A DNA stretch of 64,000 nucleotides from the NCBI GenBank assembly GCA_944324845.1, contig CALUXX010000001.1, positions 248,001 through 312,000 on the forward strand, given 5' to 3'. Numbering within the stretch: position 1 is the stretch's first letter; each line of letters starts with the position of its first letter. The translations under genes and the position numbers were made by a program. The notes below the pieces were generated by a model. That model was not told the origin of the DNA. It searched no databases and was given only the letters and a program-made list of their open reading frames with translations. This document shows positions 53,172 through 54,162 of the stretch, piece after piece. This DNA comes from Candidatus Gastranaerophilales bacterium. Lineage in GTDB: Bacteria; Cyanobacteriota; Vampirovibrionia; Gastranaerophilales; Gastranaerophilaceae.

Positions 53172-53249
53172 TCATCCTGAACTTGCTTTAGGGTTTTGAT
53201 GACAACATTAACGTACACAAGTACGTCATCCTGAACTTGTTTCAGGATC
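53172..53249. repeat. Two type B palindromes after the prepilin gene
   Basis: A degenerate copy (ATCCTGAACTTG, 53172 onward) and a perfect one at 53225-53249 match the type B repeats at 16 kb. No protein gene is visible from 53164 to 53596 (433 bp): it holds these copies, a weak type A-like trace near 53300 and the C and D repeats listed separately. Confidence 0.8.
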
Positions 53250-53446
53250 TATATGATAGCAAGTTTCAGAATCTACAAGAAATACGAACAAATTCGCAGT
53301 GACGTATTACGAAAAAACTTAATAATAGTCAAGTGACCGAATCACTTGATACGCTTTACAATTAATGCACCTCGAAATTCACCTTTCTGGGTGCTTTCCC
53401 TTTGTTCATTTCCTCTCACTCATCAGAGAGGACGCAAAACCATCAA

Positions 53447-53573
53447 CCCTCACCCCAACCCTCTCCCACGGGAGAGGGCGCAAGATATAACATTTCTTCA
53501 CCTACCAAGATAGAATTTCTTTTGTCTAGTGTTTCTTGTTCCCTCCCCAACTTGGGGAGGGTAAGGGTGGGGA
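53447..53573. repeat. C and D palindromic repeats left of the DUF559 gene
   Basis: C repeat at 53447-53480: CCCTCACCCCAACC followed by the palindrome CTCTCCC-ACG-GGAGAG. A degenerate C copy precedes it at about 53410. D repeat at 53541-53573: the palindrome CCCTCCCCAA/TTGGGGAGGG followed by TAAGGGTGGGG. Both are much more GC-rich than the surroundings. Confidence 0.85.
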
Positions 53574-53596
53574 ACGATTTGTGATAAAATAAAAAT

Positions 53597-53935
53597 ATGA
53601 ATATTATACAAAGAGCAAGAACTCTTAGAAAAAATATGACTAAACAAGAAAGAATACTTTGGCAATTTTTAAGAAAGAAAAGTATTAATAATCTTAAATT
53701 CAGACGTCAATATCCGATAGGAAAATATATAGTCGATTTTATTTGTAATGAAAAAAAGATAATTATTGAAATTGATGGCGGGCAACATAATGAAGTTAAA
53801 AACATAGCCTATGACAAAGAAAGAACAAAATACCTTGAATCAAAAGGTTATAAAGTAATCAGATTTTGGAATAATGATATTGATAATAATATAGAAGGGG
53901 TTTATCAAGAAATATTGAAATTTTTGGCAGATTAA
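53597..53935 (+). CDS. DUF559 endonuclease-like protein
   Basis: A 112-residue protein of the DUF559 group, related to very-short-patch-repair (Vsr) and PD-(D/E)xK nucleases. ARTLRKNMTKQERILWQFLR is the N-terminal helix pair. The core carries FRRQYPIGKYIVDFIC, then IIIEIDGGQHNE with the acidic and GQH residues, and GYKVIRFWNNDI. It is flanked on both sides by C and D repeats. TAAAAT ends six bases before the ATG and no ribosome binding site is seen, so it may be leaderless. DNA cleavage is inferred from the family. Confidence 0.9.
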   Translation: MNIIQRARTLRKNMTKQERILWQFLRKKSINNLKFRRQYPIGKYIVDFICNEKKIIIEIDGGQHNEVKNIAYDKERTKYLESKGYKVIRFWNNDIDNNIEGVYQEILKFLAD

Positions 53936-53955
53936 TTAAAATCTTTGAATATTGT

Positions 53956-54162
53956 CCCCCATCCCAACCTTCCCCAAGTTGGGGAAGGTGTGTTGTAAAG
54001 TAATCTATGTCAAGAATTTTTATTATAGGTACGTGCCCTCACCCCAACCCTCTCCCATCGGAGAGGGAACAAGGAAATCAACCCTCACCCCAGCCCTCTC
54101 CCACAGGAGAGGGAGCAAAACCATCGCCCCTCTCCCCAGCCCTTTTCCCTCTGAGATGGCGC
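53956..54162. repeat. D and C palindromic repeats right of the DUF559 gene
   Basis: D repeat at 53956-53988 (CCCCCATCCCAA then CCTTCCCCAA/TTGGGGAAGG) in the opposite direction to the left D copy. C repeats at 54036-54068 and 54082-54115, and a degraded one at about 54126-54162, in the same direction as the left C copy. They fill the 303-bp gap before tatD. Open frames over them (SPQPSPIGEG-type peptides) are not genes. Confidence 0.85.

Follow-up and report, generated by a model that had tools for sequence, protein, structure and literature searches.

The segment at positions 53541-53989 of the window (the whole stretch of DNA analysed, 64,000 nucleotides of a Gastranaerophilales genome) is probably a selfish element built as hairpin, tag, nuclease gene, tag and hairpin, whose PD-(D/E)XK nuclease we propose to cut its cognate palindromes, with repair spreading them. 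A wider claim, which we regard as evenly balanced between true and false, is that PIT/TM-type palindromes are the ends and cast-off copies of an unrecognised class of DUF559-driven mobile elements, a non-HUH, non-DDE counterpart of REP/RAYT systems that also lives fully translated and unspliced inside essential proteins, PriA, IspE, Mfd and ValS among them. Such a class would give a role to DUF559, still listed as of "unknown function" in Pfam. Through its in-frame copies it would also offer an unusual example of a selfish nuclease that is translated as part of a host protein and needs neither intein nor intron, with the intermediate states visible between closely related genomes.

The nuclease gene (Table 1) aligns with PF04480 over residues 2-110 at 146.9 bits in a profile search (cut-off 20.6), and its Pfam matches are PF04480 and PF18741 only. 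Its neighbours are a type IV pilin-like gene and a TatD gene with nothing else encoded between them, so that the nuclease is the only gene of the block, as the original prediction had stated. That prediction had also placed the gene between D palindromes in opposite directions, with C palindromes on both sides, an arrangement confirmed by the coordinates, by the inverted repeat and by a chance expectation of about zero. Tags included, the D palindromes make up an inverted repeat of 38 nt that is 82% complementary, and in the 64-kb window the D pattern is confined to the two sites flanking the gene (0.01 expected). When up to 3 mismatches are allowed, the same two sites are the only ones in the whole 1.96-Mb genome. 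The left D end folds at -10.6 kcal/mol. For the C palindromes, 0 are expected in the window based on 100 shuffles.

Table 1 Features of the DUF559 unit and the surrounding repeats (positions in the window)
Feature	Positions	Strand	Details
Degenerate, weak C-like hairpin, left edge of cluster	53411..53432	+	stem 7
C repeat (PIT/TM motif), left of unit	53447..53480	+	palindrome 53459-53478
Left unit end: D hairpin 53541-53561, tag facing gene (TAAGGGTGGGGA)	53541..53578	-	inverted partner of 53951-53988
DUF559 PD-(D/E)XK (Vsr/EDxHD-like) nuclease gene	53597..53935	+	112 aa; PF04480, E 2.3e-43
Right unit end: tag CCCCCATCCCAA facing gene, then D hairpin 53967-53989	53951..53989	+	inverted repeat
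C repeat (PIT/TM motif), first right of unit	54036..54069	+	palindrome 54048-54067
C repeat (PIT/TM motif), second right of unit, 46 bp past first	54082..54115	+	palindrome 54094-54113
Degenerate third right C repeat, same 46-bp register	54128..54162	+	2 mismatches

All but one of the window's seven pyrimidine-armed hairpins fall within 53411-54113, and each hairpin of this cluster, folded as single-stranded DNA, reaches -8 to -11 kcal/mol (z -2.6 to -4.4). The C and D palindromes had been described as unrelated families; instead, in both a C-rich, G-poor tag (CCCTCACCCCAA / CCCCACCCTTA) leads into a hairpin whose 5' arm is made up of pyrimidines. Genome-wide, C repeats occur in about seven places. 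The second good DUF559 gene of the genome is also found among them, with hairpin-tag before it and tag-hairpin after it, and the gene-less C sites consist either of inverted pairs, with some 100-200 bp between the copies, or of about 48-bp tandem arrays. A search of Rfam gave no match above the gathering score for the window repeats. Below that threshold, the C repeats at 54035-54069 and 54081-54115 (minus strand) resemble whalefall-1 (RF01762; E 0.011, about 21 bits against a gathering score of 37), an RNA family that may include or resemble PIT/TM repeats. To the left of the unit, a block at 53172-53410 contains copies of TCATCCTGAACTTGTTTCAGGATCT and a CAAGTGACCGAATCACTTG hairpin, and recurs reverse-complemented by another C-repeat pair of the same genome (L038, 1880-2020).

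The association extends to many other bacteria. We assembled 122 distinct DUF559 domains from the same order, from hand-picked long-ORF cases and from a search across many phyla that gave 80 loci in named genomes. Selection was by similarity to the window nuclease and so covers its less distant DUF559 relatives, and most of the genomes used are metagenome-assembled. Of 117 DUF559 genes from many phyla, 74 have pyrimidine-armed hairpins within 300 bp on both sides, and 94 have them on one side or both; outside the Gastranaerophilales, 34 of 50 genes have them on both sides. Among controls, both-sided hairpins were found at 0 of 178 positions shifted by 1.5 kb, 0 of 28 UPF0102 genes and 0 of 26 TatD genes (Fisher P = 3e-39). 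The enrichment of palindromes near DUF559 genes, on which the original prediction had been made to depend, is therefore present (63% against 0%). At about 20% of the DUF559 loci, both 300-bp flanks are free of pyrimidine-armed hairpins, which counts against a nuclease-driven model.

The two flanks of a locus also match each other. The best inverted match between left and right 300-bp flanks has a median score of 48; the corresponding scores are 19 when the flanks are taken 1 kb further away and 21 when they come from different loci (a single masked locus was later removed from this comparison). Tag orientation is symmetric in 47 of 52 scorable pairs, 36 of them with tags inward, as in the window, and 11 outward. 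In some tags-inward units (e.g., L165, L181 and L185), a G-rich tag ends no more than a few bases from the start of the nuclease domain and could act as a ribosome-binding site of the nuclease. Across 241 genomes of the order, the C-type pattern (at most 1 mismatch) is carried by 69 of the 84 that have a strong DUF559 gene and by 30 of the 157 that lack one; mean copy numbers in these two classes are 10.5 and 0.7. The odds ratio is 19.5 (P = 7e-22), and the within-genus Cochran–Mantel–Haenszel (CMH) z is 5.4. The 30 genomes that have C repeats without a strong DUF559 gene count against a nuclease-driven model.

The type of end is coupled to the nuclease. Among free-standing units, nuclease similarity correlates with end-hairpin similarity (rho 0.40 in the Gastranaerophilales; 0.52 elsewhere, a value that host GC and relatedness may confound in part; 0 of 1000 permutations). 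The window D unit recurs in a congener (G247) with 79% identity from hairpin to hairpin; the locus there is a different one and lacks C repeats. Three further genera have related nucleases whose ends resemble in type those of the D unit. The left end CCCTCCCC is common to L265, L041, L046 and L043, and the right end CCTTCCCC, where preserved, is kept in L265, L047 and L043. Two D-type units of other species (L265, about 2191-2270, and the right flank of L046) lie near a tRNA-like sequence with the 3' part GTGTCG..GGGACTCGAACCC.

Copies that occupy other loci in two other genera (g4 and g15) share 86% identity with the window nuclease. DUF559 copies fixed inside PriA, which are kept vertically, share 61-72% identity between genera, i.e., they differ by 28-39%, and for a conserved segment of the PriA helicase, identity between g1 and g4 is 84%. 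By these comparisons, the D unit has most likely moved between genera. The original prediction had argued from the GC-richness of the repeats that they spread from outside. Movement between genera supports part of that view, but the GC argument itself fails. The GC content of DUF559 genes follows that of the host (rho 0.83), and hairpin GC is high in all hosts (0.69 in low-GC hosts and 0.75 in high-GC hosts). Since the hairpins are GC-rich in every host and the gene has host composition, we attribute the GC content to structure and not to foreign origin. Near-identical nuclease copies within one genome were not seen, most being at most 72% alike; transposition of the gene is thus rare, and this counts against a nuclease-driven model.

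In many relatives, the DUF559 domain and both palindromes lie in frame within another gene. The hosts include PriA, IspE, a UvrD/AddAB-like helicase and an M14 peptidase, and in Rickettsiales Mfd and ValS (Pfam confirms most); elsewhere the domain is a C-terminal extension of a radical-SAM-like ORF. A unit can survive in frame because its ends are free of stop codons in some reading frames. The insertion point in PriA, just before the Walker A motif, accounts for 10 of the 20 fetched loci. These 20 loci were picked for long frames; in the 80-locus sample, which was not, 8 are embedded or N-terminal. Empty, filled, solo-repeat and eroded PriA alleles coexist. In one pair, the helicase parts are identical over 480 aa in a filled allele (G224) and in an allele with one chimeric repeat left and the frame kept (G060); in another, they are identical over 480 aa in a filled (G161) and an empty (G172) allele. 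Each pair is compatible with gain or with loss of the unit. No target-site duplication is obvious at the PriA junctions, nor was a clean recent empty site found there. In other species (G031, G001 and G117; loci L215, L221 and L226), the PriA linker carries a repeat of an unrelated kind in frame, GRQEDKPVSDEEEQRA..., which suggests that more than one type of insert is tolerated there.

The main rival explanation treats the palindromes as independent and of other origin, with DUF559 as a homing-type gene for which they are preferred insertion sites, within the repeat or beside it. The palindromes would then be targets of the gene and not its ends. We consider this explanation unlikely. The window unit does lie within C repeats, at a place where a sister genome has a C array, gene-less arrays exist, and the relative I-Bth0305I is a homing endonuclease, all of which this explanation would accommodate. 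It is harder to reconcile with units in those host genes that are free of palindromes in their empty alleles. Also against it, D ends are found only with this gene in the genome and accompany the gene at a C-less locus in another species, and end type tracks nuclease lineage. A comparison with empty sites in sister strains had been suggested originally; within the genus there is no clean one for the window locus, because gene order upstream of tatD is not conserved and a C array is where the sister contig breaks off.

The putative catalytic residues D47, E58, D60 and H64 are invariant in 113 of 113 copies (82 free and 31 embedded or fused). Values of dN/dS are mostly 0.06-0.21 for free and embedded copies, with one little-diverged pair at 0.29, indicating that the nuclease is under purifying selection. 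An AlphaFold model of the window nuclease (pLDDT 89.8) matches the folds of 3HRL (N. gonorrhoeae NGO0050) and of the I-Bth0305I catalytic domain (PDB 3R3P; E 1e-5, TM score 0.69-0.78) and, more weakly, that of E. coli Vsr. The sequence search agrees on 3HRL and I-Bth0305I (E 3e-4 for the latter). NGO0050, E. coli YcjD and Caulobacter VsrA belong to the same family and have the same fold as the window nuclease, but the published passages on DUF559 that we consulted mention no link to palindromes. In one such account, VsrA triggers the SOS response in cells without a methyltransferase, an indirect hint of DNA cleavage, and is proposed as a short-patch repair enzyme (PMC12907096); another assigns a DUF559 gene to the EDxHD homing endonucleases (PMC9403480).

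These properties could also be expected of a domesticated repair factor, that is, a Vsr-like host enzyme that processes hairpins or triplexes, with its genes lying beside repeats for regulation and without mobility. The Vsr fold, the proposal made for VsrA, the low dN/dS and the rarity of DUF559 on phages (5 of 50,697 records) and plasmids (46 of 72,556) are consistent with such a role. Nevertheless, we think it decidedly unlikely given the patchy presence of the gene between genomes with identical PriA segments, the horizontal D units and the in-frame copies inside unrelated enzymes.

A third explanation, which concerns the embedded copies, is that helicases and other enzymes benefit from them as nuclease domains, with the palindromes serving as linkers. 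The nucleases at the PriA site and at the HydE site are each monophyletic by site and have intact catalytic residues, as this would predict; the monophyly fits inheritance as well as homing. Trees of embedded DUF559 domains and of PriA are partly incongruent, weakly so given only 110 aa. Functional fusion is nevertheless very improbable, since IspE, ValS and a peptidase need no nuclease, the palindromes encoded in the linker are those of the free units, and lost alleles leave a single chimeric repeat in frame. Moreover, the same loops of IspE, of the M14 peptidase and of the UvrD-like gene appear to have been entered by different nuclease lineages. Finally, an accident of composition that puts GC-rich repeats near small genes has nothing further in its favour than that the repeats are common in some genomes, and it is ruled out for practical purposes by a chance expectation of about 0 and by both-sided hairpins at none of the 178 shifted positions and none of the 54 control genes.

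We therefore return to the selfish element as the preferred explanation. By analogy, it is best read as a REP/RAYT-like selfish system with a PD-(D/E)XK nuclease in place of the HUH transposase. As in REP/BIME/REPIN repeats with RAYT (TnpA-REP), a gene is bounded by inverted tagged palindromes, gene-less copies are dispersed, genes are few and gene-less palindromes many, and palindrome type tracks enzyme lineage. In contrast, the window enzyme is a PD-(D/E)XK nuclease and not an HUH Y1 transposase, and the window tags are CCCTCACCCC / CCCCACCC and not GTAG or CGTC. Membership in REP/RAYT was rejected, there being no HUH gene and no GTAG/CGTC tag. With the family of I-Bth0305I, an EDxHD/Vsr-like homing endonuclease, the units share patchy presence and the location of some copies within genes. 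Unlike that family, they have no recognised intron or intein around them, carry their own palindromic ends and are most commonly free-standing and intergenic. Rickettsia palindromic elements (RPE) are likewise palindromic and in frame in protein-coding genes, here Mfd and ValS of Rickettsiales. Unlike DUF559 units, RPEs are not known to carry a gene, and the likeness drawn here is one of layout.

The data establish the unit with its matched inverted ends, its recurrence, the link between end type and nuclease lineage, the in-frame copies with their states of loss, and the selection on the gene. From these we infer that the nuclease recognises and cuts palindromes and so drives mobility. Its substrate would be the class of pyrimidine-armed palindrome that bounds its own gene, probably folded into a hairpin or triplex while the DNA is briefly single-stranded, with the cut made in the palindrome or next to it. 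During repair, palindromes would be copied or inserted at new places, with or without the nuclease gene. The expected outcome would be dispersed gene-less repeats (C/PIT/TM arrays and inverted pairs) and few, divergent nuclease genes. No exact cut site or target-site duplication could be fixed for the units, which counts against a nuclease-driven model. In the open-access literature we found no report of a DUF559 protein cutting PIT/TM-type palindromes.

The C-repeat type corresponds to the published PIT/TM (TM_ECO) potential intrastrand triplex repeat (Holder et al. 2015, PMC4666352), on which earlier work by Hoyne and Maher is cited there. The window C copies match the E. coli TM sequences of Table 1 of that paper, with a CCCTCTCCC-loop-GGGAGAGGG hairpin followed by a G-rich third strand. 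The C repeats share this hairpin and the GGGGTGAGGG tag, and it is as hairpins that they are predicted to fold here. An E. coli inverted TM pair is ordered hairpin-tag...tag-hairpin, like the window unit. The describers of PIT/TM considered its origin unclear and never found mobility functions nearby in E. coli (PMC4666352), whereas here a cognate nuclease gene is present across many phyla. The repeat is thus already known, and the link to DUF559 appears to be new: no earlier paper on it was found in an open-access collection with few subscription journals or preprints. The DUF559 nuclease is the best candidate yet for spreading the PIT/TM repeat family.

A cognate nuclease makes the question of repeat origin testable in E. 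coli K-12, where one TM repeat (TM #9, 1,351,204-1,351,239) lies 168 bp from ycjD, the K-12 DUF559 gene (1,351,407-1,351,760). Overall, ycjD is present in 3365 out of 5426 E. coli genomes. A ycjD-less strain was considered as a clean empty site and rejected, as an efflux gene cluster occupies fabI-sapF instead. What occupies this place varies among E. coli strains, with ycjD in some and a TetR/RND/MFS efflux cluster in others (L233, NZ_CP018206, fabI-sapF), and the boundary of this difference is close to the TM repeat. The TM pair at alx-sstT in K-12 has the layout of the window unit, with about 28 bp replacing the gene. Other E. coli strains have a single hairpin there, and in some (L307, 1297KP) a different, longer intergenic sequence replaces the TM pair. 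A DUF559 gene of Neisseria also has TM-type repeats on both sides. Beside it (L304, 1389-2084), a unit of about 281 bp with two kinds of TM-like hairpin is tandemly repeated.
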